Of a DNA stretch of 64,000 nt, positions 41,895 through 51,394 are shown piece after piece. The notes beneath the pieces are model-generated. The model did no database searches, had not been told where the DNA came from, and saw only the letters and a list, made by a program, of their open reading frames with translations. A program made the translations under genes and the position numbers. How positions within the stretch are numbered: position 1 is the first letter of the stretch; the number at the start of each line of letters is the position of its first letter. The stretch comes from Dehalococcoidia bacterium (GTDB taxonomy: Bacteria; Chloroflexota; Dehalococcoidia; Lucifugimonadales; Lucifugimonadaceae). The stretch lies in contig JAPYUK010000001.1 in assembly GCA_029936155.1 (NCBI GenBank), forward strand, positions 64,746 through 128,745, given 5' to 3'.

Positions 41895-42359
41895 CTAGGA
41901 CGACTCCACTCTGGAAATCACTAACGGATATACAGCGAGTGGCACGTCCTGCAACCCCATCGTGATTTCGCCGAGGTGCTTGGTCAGGATCGCGTTTTCG
42001 CGGTAATCGATTGGGGCGACGAACAAGGAAGGGGCAGGCCTATCTAAGACTGTTTTGATCGTGTCCAGTAGCGCAGCTGACTCGTCTACATAGTTGTAGC
42101 TCCAGAAGAACGATTCGGCCAGCAGACCCCACTTTGGATTGCGCAACGACAGATCGGCATGACCGCCATATGTGTTGTCCTGCTCCCACTCGATTAGACC
42201 GTAACCGCCGTCTTCCCAGACCATCACTGCGACGTCTGAGTTGAGGCGGCGGGCGGTCTCCATTTCTTGAACATTCGTCAAGAAACCGCCATCACCGACA
42301 ATCGTCATCACCTTTCGATTTGGACCGATCACCGCGGCACTAATCGTACGGAGTAACAA
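41895..42359 (-). pseudogene. Truncated TPP enzyme: C-terminal domain fragment of an acetolactate-synthase-like protein
   Basis: VIGPNRKVMTIVGDGGFLTNVQEMETARRLNSDVAVMVWEDGGYGLIEWEQ, only ~154 aa versus 561 aa for the intact TPP enzyme at 57376; overlaps the 3' end of the upstream gene. Confidence 0.7.
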
Positions 42360-43449
42360 CCGCTCGTTGCTGAGTGAATTTTTTCAGCAGCTCTGGATCG
42401 GGTTCAGGTAGACCATCTGTATATGGCAGCATCGTTTGTTGCGCGGTCAGTTCTACTTCGGGTTGCCCAAGATCACGAATGTAAAAACGGGACGACGGGA
42501 ACAGATCACCGGGATAAGTGAAGTTCGGGAGCGTTGCGAGTTCGACGCACACGGCAGAGCCAATGGCACTTTCGAGCATGCCGCCCACCCACACCGGAAC
42601 ACCGGCGTCCTGGCAGATATCGTGGATTCTTATCGAATTGCTGAGACCGCCGACACGACCCGGTTTGATATTCACGAACTCGCAAGCACCGATACTGAGC
42701 GCCTGCTCAACCACTCTCGGTCCGGTAACGGATTCGTCGAGGCAGATCGGTGTTTCGATTGACCGAGCCAGCTCGGCGTGATCGAGGATGTCGTCGTTTG
42801 CCAGCGGTTGCTCTATGAATTCGAGATTGAACTTGTCAATCTCTTTGAACATTTCGACATCGTCCAGAGAATAGCCCGAGTTGCAGTCGATGTGTAGCTT
42901 CTCGTTTGGAAACGTCGAGCGAACTGCCTTGAGCATTTCTACGTCCCAGTCGCGAGCTACTTTCAGTTTTACTCGAGGAAATCCGGCATCAATTGCCAAT
43001 TGAATGTTTCCGAGCAGCATGTCAAAAGAGTCTTGGATTCCAAAGTCAGCACCAGCTTGAACTTCCTTGCGGGTGCCACCGAGCAGGTCGTGAAGGGGTA
43101 GGCTCTGAATCTTCGATTCGAGGGTCCACCAGACGATCTCCAGAGCTGCCTTTGCGAACTGGTTGCCTTTGAAAACGGAAAGTGCATCGATGATGCTTTC
43201 GGCCGTTTCATGCTCGCCACTGACGACCCGCGGAGCAAAGTATTCGGAGACGTTTAGAAAAACCCCTGCAGCGCCCTCGGAGCTGTAGGAAGGTCGCTCT
43301 AAAGGGGTCGATTCCGCCCACGCGAAATGGTCGCCGCTAGTGGCTTTGACCAGCACAGAGTGAATGTCGTAATCGGCACCGTATGCCGTTCGCCACGGGT
43401 ATATGAGCGGCATCGCAACGTGGAATATTTCGAGAGAATCGATCTTCAT
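42340..43449 (-). CDS. Enolase-superfamily o-succinylbenzoate synthase / N-acylamino acid racemase-like (copy 2)
   Basis: Start at MKIDSLEIFHVAMPL. RVKLKVARDWDVEMLKAVR, LHIDCNSGYS, LEFIEQPL, ICLDESVTG, VNIKPGRVGGLSNS. Confidence 0.88.
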   Translation of the reverse strand: MKIDSLEIFHVAMPLIYPWRTAYGADYDIHSVLVKATSGDHFAWAESTPLERPSYSSEGAAGVFLNVSEYFAPRVVSGEHETAESIIDALSVFKGNQFAKAALEIVWWTLESKIQSLPLHDLLGGTRKEVQAGADFGIQDSFDMLLGNIQLAIDAGFPRVKLKVARDWDVEMLKAVRSTFPNEKLHIDCNSGYSLDDVEMFKEIDKFNLEFIEQPLANDDILDHAELARSIETPICLDESVTGPRVVEQALSIGACEFVNIKPGRVGGLSNSIRIHDICQDAGVPVWVGGMLESAIGSAVCVELATLPNFTYPGDLFPSSRFYIRDLGQPEVELTAQQTMLPYTDGLPEPDPELLKKFTQQRAVVTPYD

Positions 43450-43757
43450 ACCGGAGAGGGTACATCTCGAACGAAATGAGTGTGTGCACGATTGCCAGAG
43501 GTTCGACGGCTTCGATCTACCAAAGAAATTGTAATTCGACATGACAATTGAATGCCTCTGCAAGATCATTTCTGCCTGACATTGTCCTAGGTTGGGCAAA
43601 ACTGTTGGCCAAAATTCACCGTACGAGTGCACGAACAAGCGTTCGGTCACCGTGCGGTTTCGGGTTATTGTTACTTGACTTGATTGCACTATTACGTGGT
43701 TGAGCAAATATCTCGATCTCATGATTACGTATCGATCGCCGGGAGAATCTCGAATAA

Positions 43758-43892
43758 ATGCCTGACTGGTGGCTAGAAGCAACATTGCCGACCGTGGTGT
43801 TTGGTGGCCTATTTCTGTTGTGGGTTCTGATTCCACCACCCGACGACGAAGCGGATTTTGCAAGCCGACTACGCGATAGGTTCCGCAAATAA
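43758..43892 (+). CDS. 44-aa single-TM microprotein overlapping the start of the downstream permease fusion (not in ORF track)
   Basis: MPDWWLEATLPTVVFGGLFLLWVLIPPPDDEADFASRLRDRFRK; its TAA overlaps the next ATG (TAATG, 43890-43894). Confidence 0.65.
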   Translation: MPDWWLEATLPTVVFGGLFLLWVLIPPPDDEADFASRLRDRFRK

Positions 43893-46800
43893 TGTTTGGC
43901 ACAGCCGATCGAAAACGACTGCTTGTCGGGCTCCTATTGTTGGCCGTCATCATGGGCTTGTTTCTGGCGTTCAACCGCCTGCCCAAGATCGGCATTGTTG
44001 GCGAAGATCTTGACGCTGTCAGCTCGCCAACGAGCCAGTGCTTCCAGGGTTTTTGTATAGAGCGAGATCCTGGTGTCAGTTTCGTGACTCGCTGGCTCAA
44101 GTTTTCGATCAGCTACTTACGACTGGTCACAGTGGGGATGACGTTCGCATTCGTCACAGCCGGGTTAGCAGAAGCATTCCTCTTTTCGAAGTCGATCGGC
44201 AAAGGTCTGCCAACGGCCGGAGTGTTCCGCCGAACCGTTCAGGGAGCTGCTACTGGTGGAATAATGAACCTGTGTTCAGCCTGTATTGTTCCGGTTTCAT
44301 CGGCATTTCACAGACGAGCCAGCATCGAGGGTGCAGTGGCGATGGTGCAGGGTTCGACCACGCTAAACATTCCGGCGCTCGCGATGGTTTTTTTCGTGTT
44401 TAGCCCAGTACTTGGATTTAGCCGACTGATACTTGCCGTTGTTGGCGCACTGATCATCGGACCTATCGTGGTTTTCAGTGTCAGGCGCGACCGAACTCAG
44501 TCGGTGGAGATACCTGACACGTTCGACGATCCGATAGATCGTGCCGACTGGAAAGAGGTTCTAGTTCCGGCGTTTAGGCACTGGGCGAAGGCCACTATTG
44601 GATACGCAATAAGACTTTCTCCAATCATGATTCTCGCCGGGTTCGCAAGCGGTCTCGTCATTCAGTGGCTGAGCCCTGAAGTGATCGCCACTTACCTGGG
44701 TAACGATGTACGCGGTGTATTGCTGGCCGCGACGTTCGGCGTGTTGATCAACGTGCCGCTTCTTTTCGAAATTCCTCTTGTTGCCCTGTTGCTATTGCTA
44801 GGAATGGGCACTGCGCCGGCAGCGACGTTGCTGTTCGCTGCAGCGGCTGGTGGGCCGGTTACTTTCTGGGGTTTGGCCAAGTTGATGCCTCGCAAAGCCA
44901 TCGCTACATTCGCTACGGCTACATGGGCGGTCGGCGCGTTGGGAGGCTTACTGGTGCTCGCCGGAGGTGCCTACTTCTGGGAGGACGCGAGATTGAGCGA
45001 CCGGGTTGCGAAGGCTTCTGAGCAGCGAACGGTCGAAGAGTTGTTTTTGGCGTCTGGATCGGAGGTTGTGAGCGTATTCGATTACCCGGTGATATTCGAT
45101 GGCGTGCCCGCGGCTGACGAATTCGCTCCGTTCAGGAATATTGCTCCGTTTATCGGCACCCAGGCGATGGTAGAAAACCGATATCCGGGCGTGGCGATAC
45201 TCGACTTCGACCGTGATGGTGATCTCGATTTTTATGTAACTTCGGCTGAATCAAATGCCGTGTTTCAGATAACACGTGGTGGTCCTAACAAGCTCTTCAG
45301 GAACGATGGGGATGATGTATTTACGGAGATCGCTGCCGGAGCCGGTGTCGGCGCCGCCGCGCAGAACTCGACCGCTGTGGCAGCTTGTGACCTCGACAAT
45401 GATGGCTACCAGGATCTCTACGTCGGAGCGCATGGCAGGATCGGTGACAGTCTGGACTATCGGTCAGTTACCGAAGTACCGGGACTAGCCGTCGCAGTTC
45501 AGGATCGGCTGTTCCACAACAACGGCGACGGTACTTTTACAGATATCACCGTATCGGCATTTGGCGATCACACAAACATCCGCTCGACGGCAAGTATTGC
45601 TTGTGGTGATATCGACAACGATGGCTGGCTCGATCTGTACATCGGCAACCGCGCCGACCAGGATTTCGTGCGATTCGATACTTCACGTCACCATGGTCAT
45701 TTCAATACGTTCTTCCACAACAACGGTGACTTGACTTTCTCCGATCTCACAGCTGAAGCAGGACTTGTTTCACCGCCCATTCGGATGCGGGATGTCAACG
45801 GAAACCCGATTACTTTTCCGGGCTTGAATGGTGACAACGTGGAGGGGTTCGATTTCAGCGTGGTCGATAAAAATGGACATATTGTTGGCGATCCCGCGGG
45901 TCAGACGTGGACGACATTGATGTTTGATCACGACTCGGATGGCGATCTCGATATCTGGGTCGGCGACGATGGCGACCGCTTGAAGGTTTACCAAAACGAC
46001 TCGGATGAAGACGGTATCTCGTTTACTCGTATCGAAGAGCAGCTTGGCATCGACCGGATGGGTCAATGGATGGGATTCGCTCTGGGCGACTATGACGGCG
46101 ACTCAGATCTCGATGTTTTCGTAACAAACATGGGCTTTCATCCTCTTGAACGCCCTTGGCCGGGTGAGCCTTCGGCAGACTGCGCGTATTACCACTCGAC
46201 GGCAACGGGAACATGTTTTCACGCGTTGATCGAGAACAGGGTTAATGAGGCTGCGGATCCAGATCGGGCCGGCGCATTCGTGTTCGTCGAAGGTGAGACC
46301 ATGGTCGTACCAAACGATATACTCCCGCCCACTTCCCTGGACAGCGATTTCCTACCTACCAACGACGCCTCGATCAACGGCCTTGGGGCTTATGAGTTTG
46401 GGTTCGGTACAGCGTTCTTTGATATGGATAACGATGCCGATGAGGATCTGTACTGGCTCGGCTCGCTAGCCGCACGCGGAGAGGGTCCGCAAGGAGATTT
46501 CGCACCTGGGTTTGGTCGCATGCTCCAGAACGCCGGGGATGGGACGTTCAGAGATGTAACGGTCGAATCGCACACGGTGGATGCACTGGCTATCGATTAT
46601 TCAGTGCTTGAAACCAACAACCACGATTTCAATGCCAGCAAGCAACGACTTGGTATCGAATTCCATGAGAACGGCAAGGGTGTCGCGGTTGGAGACTTGA
46701 ACGGTGACGGCTATGTCGACCTGATCGGCACAAACTCCAATGGCGAAACTTTCATGTCCGACGGTGAACGAGCGGTTGTGGGTGGCCCGCTGTTTGTGTG

Positions 46801-47122
46801 GATGAGCGCCGGGGGCGACAACAACTGGATATCGTTCAGGCTGAAGGGGCGCATGGCGATCGATGGCACCGGTTCGAACGCCGATGGAATCGGTGCGAAG
46901 GTCACAATCACTCACGCGCTTCGGAGAGAGACATCGACCATCCAGATGAAAGAGGTTCTTGGGTCATCCAGCTTCCTGTCGATGAGTTCCCTAGACGTTC
47001 ATTTTGGTCTGGGCGACGCCGACAAAATTGCAGTGACAATCGACTGGCCCAGCGGTTTGACGACTGCCTATAATGATCTGAACGTCAACCAGATCCACGA
47101 GTTCACCGAACCTGCGAACTAG
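43892..47122 (+). CDS. N-terminal permease domain fused to FG-GAP/VCBS repeats and a C-terminal ASPIC/UnbV domain
   Basis: Multi-TM N-terminus with NLCSACIVPVSSAFHRRASIEGAVAMVQGSTTLNIPAL; repeated LDFDRDGDLDFYV, CDLDNDGYQDLYVG, GDIDNDGWLDLYIGN, HDSDGDLDIWVG, GDYDGDSDLDVFV; C-terminus SLDVHFGLGDADKIAVTIDWPSG. Confidence 0.85.
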   Translation: MFGTADRKRLLVGLLLLAVIMGLFLAFNRLPKIGIVGEDLDAVSSPTSQCFQGFCIERDPGVSFVTRWLKFSISYLRLVTVGMTFAFVTAGLAEAFLFSKSIGKGLPTAGVFRRTVQGAATGGIMNLCSACIVPVSSAFHRRASIEGAVAMVQGSTTLNIPALAMVFFVFSPVLGFSRLILAVVGALIIGPIVVFSVRRDRTQSVEIPDTFDDPIDRADWKEVLVPAFRHWAKATIGYAIRLSPIMILAGFASGLVIQWLSPEVIATYLGNDVRGVLLAATFGVLINVPLLFEIPLVALLLLLGMGTAPAATLLFAAAAGGPVTFWGLAKLMPRKAIATFATATWAVGALGGLLVLAGGAYFWEDARLSDRVAKASEQRTVEELFLASGSEVVSVFDYPVIFDGVPAADEFAPFRNIAPFIGTQAMVENRYPGVAILDFDRDGDLDFYVTSAESNAVFQITRGGPNKLFRNDGDDVFTEIAAGAGVGAAAQNSTAVAACDLDNDGYQDLYVGAHGRIGDSLDYRSVTEVPGLAVAVQDRLFHNNGDGTFTDITVSAFGDHTNIRSTASIACGDIDNDGWLDLYIGNRADQDFVRFDTSRHHGHFNTFFHNNGDLTFSDLTAEAGLVSPPIRMRDVNGNPITFPGLNGDNVEGFDFSVVDKNGHIVGDPAGQTWTTLMFDHDSDGDLDIWVGDDGDRLKVYQNDSDEDGISFTRIEEQLGIDRMGQWMGFALGDYDGDSDLDVFVTNMGFHPLERPWPGEPSADCAYYHSTATGTCFHALIENRVNEAADPDRAGAFVFVEGETMVVPNDILPPTSLDSDFLPTNDASINGLGAYEFGFGTAFFDMDNDADEDLYWLGSLAARGEGPQGDFAPGFGRMLQNAGDGTFRDVTVESHTVDALAIDYSVLETNNHDFNASKQRLGIEFHENGKGVAVGDLNGDGYVDLIGTNSNGETFMSDGERAVVGGPLFVWMSAGGDNNWISFRLKGRMAIDGTGSNADGIGAKVTITHALRRETSTIQMKEVLGSSSFLSMSSLDVHFGLGDADKIAVTIDWPSGLTTAYNDLNVNQIHEFTEPAN

Positions 47123-48723: not shown

Positions 48724-49902
48724 CTATGTCGCTCGCTGCTCAATCCAGTCGAGGTCGAACTCGAAGCCGAATCCGGGTGCGTTGGACGGTGTGAGATATC
48801 CGTCTTTGATAACCGGAGTACCCGGCAACACAACGAGTTCCTCAAGTGGCACTCCTGGAGGGGCAACGCCTTCGGAGCGCTCAGCCCACATCACCGATGA
48901 CATCGCGTACGCAAGGTGTTGACCATACGGGTAGTTCGTGCTTGCGTGAGGGATGACGGTAAGTCCGTGCGCCTCTGCCAGATGGCAGATTTTGATACCG
49001 GCGGTTAGGCCTCCAACCCATTGCAGGTCGGGCTGGAAGATGTCTACAAGACCGTGGCTGGCCGCGAGTGCGAACGGGTGGATCGAGTACCAGTGTTCGC
49101 CGGTTGCAAGCGTCTGATAGGGAATACGTTGGCGGAGATTGAAGTAGCTGTCCATATCTTCTGGCAGCATGTAGTCCTCAAGCCATTTAATGTTGTAGGG
49201 GCGCAAGCGCTCGGCAAGACGAACCATATAGTCGGTGTTCATCGACATCCAACAATCGACGGCGATTTCTACGTCATCGCCAACCTGCTCACGGGTTTTC
49301 ACAACCAATTCTTCTGTTCGGTTCAACCCCGGCAGTCCAGCGTCGGGTCCTTCACGCAGGAAGAGTTTTACTGCCTTGAAGCCGAGTTCGAGGAACCAGT
49401 CGATCGAGTTCTCGGTGCCATACGAGAGATCGGTGTTACTGGCATAGCAAAATATCTTTTCTTTCTGCGGCCCACCAATTATTTCGTAGACCGGTCTGTT
49501 GAGCAGCTTGCCCTTGAGATCCCAGAGTGCGTTGTCGACAGCACTTATGGCGAAGCTGGAAACACCTGCCGTTCCATAAGGGGATGTCGCCTTCTGCATG
49601 AGATCCCAAACCCGCTCGGTCGCCATGCAGTTTTCGCCCTCGATCACAGGGCCGATGTGGTCGTTGATGAGGGGGACGGTAACACCGCTGTGGAGCGTAA
49701 GTCCAAATCCCCATGTACCGTCTTCAGCGGTGACGACACACGCTGTTCGCTTCCAGTTGTTGCCCCAGTCGGATCGCTTCAGCTCAGGGTAGCGTTGCAT
49801 CGGGCTGACAAAGCCGTTGGTTTCGATCTTGGGAACACGGGGCTTTGTCGTAGGGCGTGGCGTTACGTCGACTTCGATGGCTTTGACTGAGGCTATTTTC
49901 AT
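48724..49902 (-). CDS. Enolase-superfamily, L-rhamnonate dehydratase-like (copy 3)
   Basis: FKAVKLFLREGPDAG, IAVDCWMSMN, IKWLEDYMLPED, LATGEHWYS, VIPHAST. Confidence 0.88.
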   Translation of the reverse strand: MKIASVKAIEVDVTPRPTTKPRVPKIETNGFVSPMQRYPELKRSDWGNNWKRTACVVTAEDGTWGFGLTLHSGVTVPLINDHIGPVIEGENCMATERVWDLMQKATSPYGTAGVSSFAISAVDNALWDLKGKLLNRPVYEIIGGPQKEKIFCYASNTDLSYGTENSIDWFLELGFKAVKLFLREGPDAGLPGLNRTEELVVKTREQVGDDVEIAVDCWMSMNTDYMVRLAERLRPYNIKWLEDYMLPEDMDSYFNLRQRIPYQTLATGEHWYSIHPFALAASHGLVDIFQPDLQWVGGLTAGIKICHLAEAHGLTVIPHASTNYPYGQHLAYAMSSVMWAERSEGVAPPGVPLEELVVLPGTPVIKDGYLTPSNAPGFGFEFDLDWIEQRAT

Positions 49903-50239: not shown

Positions 50240-51394
50240 TTATTCGCCGCGGAACTGTTCGTCGGAGTTTGCGCGGAGGAAGTCCATGTTCATCTCGATT
50301 CCGAGTCCTGGGCCATCCGGCATGTGCAGCCTGCCCTCTCGGACATCAAGCGGCGTCTGAATAAACTGGTCGTAGGCTCCCAATCGATGTCGAGCCGTCT
50401 CGAGCTTGTAGAAATTAGGTACGCTCATCATCACCTGCGCACCCGCCAGAATGTTGATGGGACCACTGGCGTCGTGAGGTGATATTGGCACATAGTAGGC
50501 CTCTGCCATCGTCGAGATTTTCTTTAGCTCCGAGATGCCACCTGTCCAGGTGACATCGGGCATCAGGAAATCGGCCAAATCCTGCTCAAGCACCGCGACG
50601 AATTCCCAGCGAGTGTGGAGACGCTCACCAACCGATATCGGTAGTTCAATCTGATTGCGAACGTTCTTGAGCGCATGAGTGCTTTCGACTGGCACCGGCT
50701 CTTCCCACCAGTGGATGTTGGACGGTGCGACGCTACGTGACAGTCGAACAGCTGTTGGCACGTCGAAGCGACCGTGTGCGTCGATCAGCAGCTCCATGTC
50801 GGGGCCTGCACCCTCGCGAATTGCGGCGGTGATTTGGTTCCCTTCTGCCTCGCCGCTGGCAGTCATCGTGCCACTGAGATAACCGTTGCTTTCTTCGACC
50901 ATGTGCGGATACGGATCGAACTTCATGGCCGTGTGCCCGGAGTCCGCAATTTCTTTTGCCTGTCGCTTCGCTTCATCGGGTCCGATATTAGGATCAGGAT
51001 GGGTATAGAGCTCGATGTTTTCTCGAACCGGTCCTCCGAGCAGGTTGTAGATCGTCTCATTCATCGCCTTGCCGCGAATGTCCCAGAGTGCGATATCGAT
51101 ACCGCTGATGGCGTTCGTCGAGGCTCCCCGCGAGCCCATGTAGGTGAAGCGCCGAAAAATCTTGTTCCAGATCTGCTCAATGTTGAAAGGGTTGTCACCG
51201 ACTATCAGCGGATTCAGCTGTTGCAGCACTGCGCACACGGCACGGTTCGCCACTGGGTGGGTTGTCGTAACTTCTCCCCAACCGGTAATTCCTTCGTCGG
51301 TCTGCACTTCAACGAAAATGTATTCGCCCTGCCTGCCAAAGTTGTAGGCGGCGGTTGCAAGTAGTAGCCAGGGCGTGACTTTGGTGATTTTCAT
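50240..51394 (-). CDS. Enolase-superfamily, galactonate dehydratase-like (copy 4)
   Basis: GIDIALWDIRGKAMNETIYNLLGGP, AMKFDPYPH, LLIDAHGRFD, IHWWEEPVP, SVGERLHTRWEF, PISPHDASGP. Confidence 0.92.
   Translation of the reverse strand: MKITKVTPWLLLATAAYNFGRQGEYIFVEVQTDEGITGWGEVTTTHPVANRAVCAVLQQLNPLIVGDNPFNIEQIWNKIFRRFTYMGSRGASTNAISGIDIALWDIRGKAMNETIYNLLGGPVRENIELYTHPDPNIGPDEAKRQAKEIADSGHTAMKFDPYPHMVEESNGYLSGTMTASGEAEGNQITAAIREGAGPDMELLIDAHGRFDVPTAVRLSRSVAPSNIHWWEEPVPVESTHALKNVRNQIELPISVGERLHTRWEFVAVLEQDLADFLMPDVTWTGGISELKKISTMAEAYYVPISPHDASGPINILAGAQVMMSVPNFYKLETARHRLGAYDQFIQTPLDVREGRLHMPDGPGLGIEMNMDFLRANSDEQFRGE

Follow-up and report, generated by a model that had tools for sequence, protein, structure and literature searches.

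The window, i.e., the whole stretch of 64,000 nucleotides that was analysed, carries on its forward strand a small gene directly followed by, and overlapping with, a large gene in which a membrane permease and a β-propeller are joined in one chain. The features of this locus are as follows.

43741-43745, + strand: GGGAG, likely ribosome-binding site of the small gene, inferred from its position 12 nt 5' of the ATG
43758-43892, + strand: 44-aa single-helix membrane microprotein, MPDWWLEATLPTVVFGGLFLLWVLIPPPDDEADFASRLRDRFRK; its TAA overlaps the next ATG (TAATG)
43892-47122, + strand: permease-propeller fusion gene, an uninterrupted ORF of 1076 aa plus stop
43919-43981, + strand: extra N-terminal transmembrane helix (residues about 10-30), from hydropathy and the AF2 model
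44039-44056, + strand: CFQGFC hairpin motif (residues 50-55), predicted to be extracytoplasmic, from alignment and AF2
44108-44953, + strand: PF03773 ArsP_1 permease domain (residues 73-354), from Pfam; two four-helix halves in the model
44270-44293, + strand: LCSACIVP, broken-helix motif of the first half (C128, C131), from alignment
44765-44776, + strand: FEIP, broken-helix motif of the second half (E293), from alignment
44978-45121, + strand: permease-propeller linker (residues about 363-410), partly of low pLDDT, with conserved frame and a pN/pS of 0.24
45122-46771, + strand: FG-GAP/VCBS β-propeller with seven putative Ca sites (Dx[DN]xD[GAS]), from Pfam, motifs and Foldseek
46886-47098, + strand: ASPIC/UnbV domain (residues 999-1069), from Pfam

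An earlier note on this DNA had described a single 1076-aa ORF, and the frame was indeed found to be uninterrupted on the + strand; its start, however, is at 43892 and not at 43758 as had been stated, the latter position lying in another frame and opening the separate 44-codon gene. The covalent join of permease and FG-GAP/ASPIC propeller was likewise confirmed, since all the Pfam domains scored above their curated cut-offs within this one ORF: ArsP_1 at residues 73-354 (68.6 bits versus a cut-off of 32.3), FG-GAP_3 in five stretches (116.7 bits), the FG-GAP model also in five stretches, and UnbV_ASPIC at residues 999-1069 (63.6 bits). With both FG-GAP repeats and UnbV_ASPIC above cut-off, the C-terminal part belongs to the FG-GAP/ASPIC propeller family. 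More broadly, the earlier reading of the locus held for its domains, but it overlooked where the fusion starts, that a conserved 44-aa gene occupies 43758-43892, that a CFQGFC hairpin is present, and that C-terminal domains are exchanged between lineages, as described below.

The genome from which the window derives is a fragmented draft (2.07 Mb in 84 contigs), which could suggest an artefact of assembly or binning, or two genes merged by a frameshift. Nonetheless, an intact orthologue of 80% identity is present in the closed PacBio genome CP046147 (L046), which excludes an assembly error, and in the genus, more than ten genomes (most of those sampled) have orthologues of 76-80% identity that cross the junction without a stop or frameshift. 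Within the genus, the permease had the lowest pN/pS (0.117) and is thus the most constrained part of the fusion, followed by the N-terminal helix and loop (0.130) and the propeller (0.172); the linker, at 0.241, is itself under purifying selection, and the ASPIC domain stood at 0.281. Between residues 332 and 426, no Met codon that could start a separate propeller was found, nor was any signal-peptide-like stretch seen. A join or frameshift at 45,000-45,060, which the earlier note had proposed to check, was rejected on the continuity of the orthologues, the constraint on the linker and the lack of an internal Met. The fusion is therefore real and conserved, and the chance that it is an artefact is negligible. 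The closed genome is that of Candidatus Lucifugimonas marina JH1073, a cultivated, PacBio-sequenced SAR202 bacterium described as monoderm (PMC10444878); as the unit is intact in this isolate, its function can be tested.

The permease region was compared in an alignment of 43 sequences, all of which matched PF03773; the N-terminus is thus a true permease of this family, as the earlier note had supposed, and not a plain anchor. C128 and C131 are invariant in this alignment, with CSAC as such found in 42 of the 43, and EIP, including E293, is invariant in all 43; the hairpin motif CFQGFC occurs in 41 and reads CIQGLC in one more. The AF2 model built from these 43 sequences (mean pLDDT 78.4, pTM 0.78) contains an additional N-terminal helix, a β-hairpin at residues 48-57 that includes CFQGFC, and two four-helix halves, the helices being broken at the CSAC and FEIP motifs. 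The two halves aligned weakly with each other as profiles (E = 0.099). No solved homologue was found in the PDB with E below 0.1, either by sequence profile or by fold, and the transport site is thus a model of unverified geometry. A nine-helix topology is predicted for the membrane part and, with the basic N-terminus inside, would place the C-terminus outside the cell.

By family, the fusion is a variant of the known ArsP / PF03773 permeases (TCDB 2.A.119), and not a new kind of system. ArsP proteins function as transporters and have in common a Cys motif within the membrane (PMC4435449, PMC7176098), which in the published members is C(S/T)C (PMC4435449); they are described as having 4+4 helices, and the characterised ArsP is an exporter (PMC7176098). 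The PF03773 profile spans the whole core of the fusion, which resembles ArsP in its conserved membrane Cys motif and the conserved Glu-x-Pro in the second half, and may share with it the two four-helix halves seen in the model. In contrast to ArsP, the fusion permeases have CSAC in place of C(S/T)C (within the phylum, ordinary PF03773 proteins carry CSC or CSCC), an extra N-terminal helix, the CFQGFC hairpin, a C-terminal domain predicted to be extracellular, and a coupled microprotein, and the gene lies outside any ars operon. Judged by sequence, the fusion-type permeases are a distinct subfamily marked by the extra helix, the CFQGFC hairpin, and CSAC for C(S/T)C. Similarity to SaoE (NF040736) and to the SO_0444 Cu/Zn efflux family (NF033936) is also recognisable over the permease core, but the respective scores of 33.4 versus 325 and 25.9 versus 300 are about one tenth of the cut-offs. 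Membership in either SaoE or CuZnOut_SO0444 was rejected because these values fall far below the NCBIfam equivalog cut-offs. In the open-access literature, no paper was found on SaoE as a named family.

In the propeller, the Asp-rich DxDxDGxxD repeats reported earlier were located as seven Dx[DN]xD[GAS]xxD motifs, at fusion residues 438, 500, 573, 679, 733, 844 and 935. Motifs of the type Dx[DN]xDG bind Ca in the propeller blades of other proteins (PMC3123361), and by this sequence likeness the fusion propeller is probably stabilised by, or binds, Ca. Its AF2 model is mostly of pLDDT 80-93. The best PDB match of the propeller, both by sequence (E 2.6e-10) and by fold (Foldseek on the predicted model; E 7.6e-24, TM-score 0.71 on the target), was CRTAC1, cartilage acidic protein 1 (9etn), which shares the FG-GAP and ASPIC domains; unlike the fusion propeller, CRTAC1 has no permease attached. 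Of 29 aligned fusions, 23 retain four cysteines of the propeller (499, 571, 764 and 775). Relatives also have propellers homologous to this one as stand-alone proteins of roughly 720-800 residues, and several of these (L025, L027-L031) have lipoprotein-like start signals (LVLAGC, LWVACS, LAFSC); on this account the fusion propeller is probably extracellular as well. The earlier suggestion that a large propeller is placed beside a transport domain is borne out as to the covalent join, and a position of the propeller next to that domain, outside the cell, is probably right. One stand-alone, lipoprotein-like propeller gene, in JH1073 (G013:C1:1815702-1817720, - strand, in L070), is broken by a single in-frame TGA, which makes it either a pseudogene or a sequencing error.

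The small gene encodes one hydrophobic helix with a basic C-terminus. Its TAATG overlap with the fusion gene was found at 14 of 14 loci of the genus and its pN/pS within the genus is 0.22, indicative of purifying selection, which together show that the gene is coding. In most of these 14 loci, a GGAG- or GAG-like run is similarly placed. A profile search of 147 genomes at E < 1e-12 returned 17 strong matches in 16 genomes, all 16 of which also have a PF03773 match, and in all but one case the microprotein gene stands immediately 5' of the permease (16 of 17). Copies were seen upstream of long-class fusions, of short-class fusions and of permease-only genes. The 17th is an orphan (L141:8681-8944, - strand) in G070, a genome with three fusions, and no copy was found beside the two of these fusions that were examined (L045, L055). 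Weaker matches elsewhere cover residues 6-28 and resemble generic membrane helices. At many fusions in many lineages, an adjacent microprotein is absent, and the short ORFs found 5' of fusions without a copy were just the ends of peptide-transporter genes and unrelated frames. No Pfam family matches the microprotein, and it is apparently new to description; conserved as it is, annotation pipelines could overlook so short a gene. It probably acts with the permease, either as a small subunit or in its assembly. A contig labelled Alphaproteobacteria (L047), probably misbinned, carries the start of a SAR202 fusion together with a microprotein that matches those of the SAR202 loci L057 and L059 in every residue.

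In the order, a PF03773 match within an open frame of 868-1304 aa was found in 28 of 147 genomes (37 proteins), and all such frames that were scanned in full have FG-GAP and ASPIC. At the level of the class, 12 of 393 genomes matched the permease query at E <= 1e-10, a single-sequence survey that lets divergent members escape. Among genomes from outside the class, two that belong to one Chloroflexota genus have four close relatives each, and three further matches are stand-alone permeases of 24-29% identity. Overall, the CSAC/CFQGFC subfamily is found in many SAR202 lineages and in one other Chloroflexota genus. One match lies on a 9-kb contig labelled Deltaproteobacteria (L058), for which misbinning is possible.

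Within this distribution, the C-terminal part is variable. The fusion propellers fall into two classes, long (the type in the window) and short, which are interleaved on a permease tree with many weak deep branches, such that about five changes are needed. L114 and L115 have a PD40 propeller and TIG between the permease core and the FG-GAP/ASPIC propeller (L114:4123-8034, - strand, 1304 aa; L115:5835-9632, + strand, 1266 aa), and L056 joins the core to two TIG followed by FG-GAP/ASPIC. In L113 (4405-6576, + strand), a CFQGFC permease core is joined to DUF3179 (277 bits) without a propeller; the Cys motif of this protein reads CAAC. DUF3179 is a family of unknown function, some members of which contain selenocysteine (PMC9312934), and this partner hints at thiol or selenol chemistry. 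The L061 form is split, a 432-aa permease gene being followed within a few bases by the gene for a membrane-anchored propeller. Lastly, L062, L116 and L111 have the permease alone with no C-terminal partner. The swapping of C-terminal domains suggests that they adapt the core to ligands or surface partners, and the survival of permease-only members indicates that the core functions by itself.

The deep-ocean SAR202 bacteria belong to an environmentally important group that is ubiquitous in the ocean, slow-growing and monoderm; to our knowledge, little is understood of how such cells take up or export compounds. For the two-gene unit we favor, with a probability of roughly 45%, a surface transporter with a Cys-Cys-Glu site that is equipped with a small subunit and with an extracellular domain for capture or docking. 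At its start, the large chain would have a single helix anchored inward and then a hairpin, facing outward, that bears the C-x4-C pair of CFQGFC; it would continue into the PF03773 transport core, in the two four-helix halves of which the broken helices would bring C128, C131 and E293 to the probable substrate site. The last helix would exit outward and bear the CRTAC1-like propeller, probably Ca-stabilised, and the ASPIC domain, so that the propeller would be covalently tied at the mouth of the transporter; the translationally coupled 44-aa single-helix protein would probably serve as the small subunit or assembly factor. Family and motifs together suggest a thiol-reactive class of substrate, and the core may accordingly move a soft metal, a metalloid or a related compound, for which, for the carrier of which, or for a surface partner, the propeller could be the docking or capture platform. 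Domain composition, conservation, gene overlap and the swapping of C-terminal domains are direct observations here, while the topology and the subunit role have fair support. Speaking against this reading are the failure to find a solved relative of the permease, the degenerate permeases that still bear the propeller, the lack of metal, arsenic or selenium genes beside the window's locus and of neighbors conserved beyond the genus (apart from the occasional peptide ABC transporter genes), the many lineages with no adjacent microprotein, and the weak alignment of the two halves. A permease with its own extracellular propeller, if true, would be an unusual transporter design.

The main competitor of this reading on the side of the propeller is that the permease is only a membrane anchor or scaffold, and that the propeller does the work, as a receptor or adhesin on the surface or as an enzyme platform, with no transport. 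Such a role agrees with the occurrence of the same propeller as a stand-alone lipoprotein and with the degenerate permeases of L065 and L078, which have no PF03773 match and lack CSAC and FEIP but have kept the propeller and a CFQG.C hairpin; having lost these elements, the membrane part of the latter two may be a mere scaffold that does not transport. In the main clade, however, the transport motifs do not vary and no region is under stronger constraint than the permease, and some members survive as the permease alone, accompanied by the microprotein (L062, L116), such that the core must have a function of its own; we thus regard a pure anchor as unlikely. On the side of the permease, the core may be an exporter of organo-metalloid or soft-metal ions, similar to ArsP or SO_0444, in which case the propeller would serve only to scaffold a complex at the cell surface. 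Membership in PF03773, the weak matches to the SaoE and CuZnOut models, and the export activity of the characterised ArsP (PMC7176098) point in this direction, but the NCBIfam scores are low (33 versus 325 and 26 versus 300), CSAC replaces the C(S/T)C of ArsP, and no resistance genes are nearby in the window, for which last reason the locus lends no support to ArsP-like export; this we consider somewhat less likely still. The surface transporter could also be one case of a modular class, in which a single CSAC/CFQGFC core has been repeatedly joined to various extracellular receptor domains, such as propellers or DUF3179, that set what is captured. This broader proposal is tentative and less likely than not; if true, it would imply a small single-helix subunit in many lineages, and a receptor that is built covalently into the transporter and does not act as a binding protein of its own.

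The degenerate propeller genes are arranged in tandem in L065 (4449-7700 and 7820-10996, both - strand) and occur singly in L078 (6759-9428, - strand). Around the fusion locus of the window, no metal, arsenic or selenium genes were found; its neighbors are MFS, enolase-superfamily, sulfatase and similar genes, with no arsenic-resistance operon. Synteny is at the level of the genus, and no neighbor is conserved beyond it apart from occasional peptide ABC transporter genes. A search of the whole window for RNA elements returned none at the gathering threshold, and a promoter and terminator scan of the fusion locus gave matches not clearly above those of shuffled sequences. In the open-access literature, most subscription journals being outside its scope, no report was found of FG-GAP/ASPIC permease fusions or of SAR202 FG-GAP proteins. 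Beyond the synteny that the window itself shows, peptide/dipeptide ABC transporter genes are often near the fusion (L040, L041, L042, L044, L058, L068, L072, L073), which is possibly just a general feature of these genomes. Three enolase-superfamily genes of the mandelate racemase type surround the fusion in the window (42340-43479, 48724-49902 and 50240-51394), and a short ORF at 41895-42359 matches thiamine pyrophosphate enzymes in their C-terminal domain alone.
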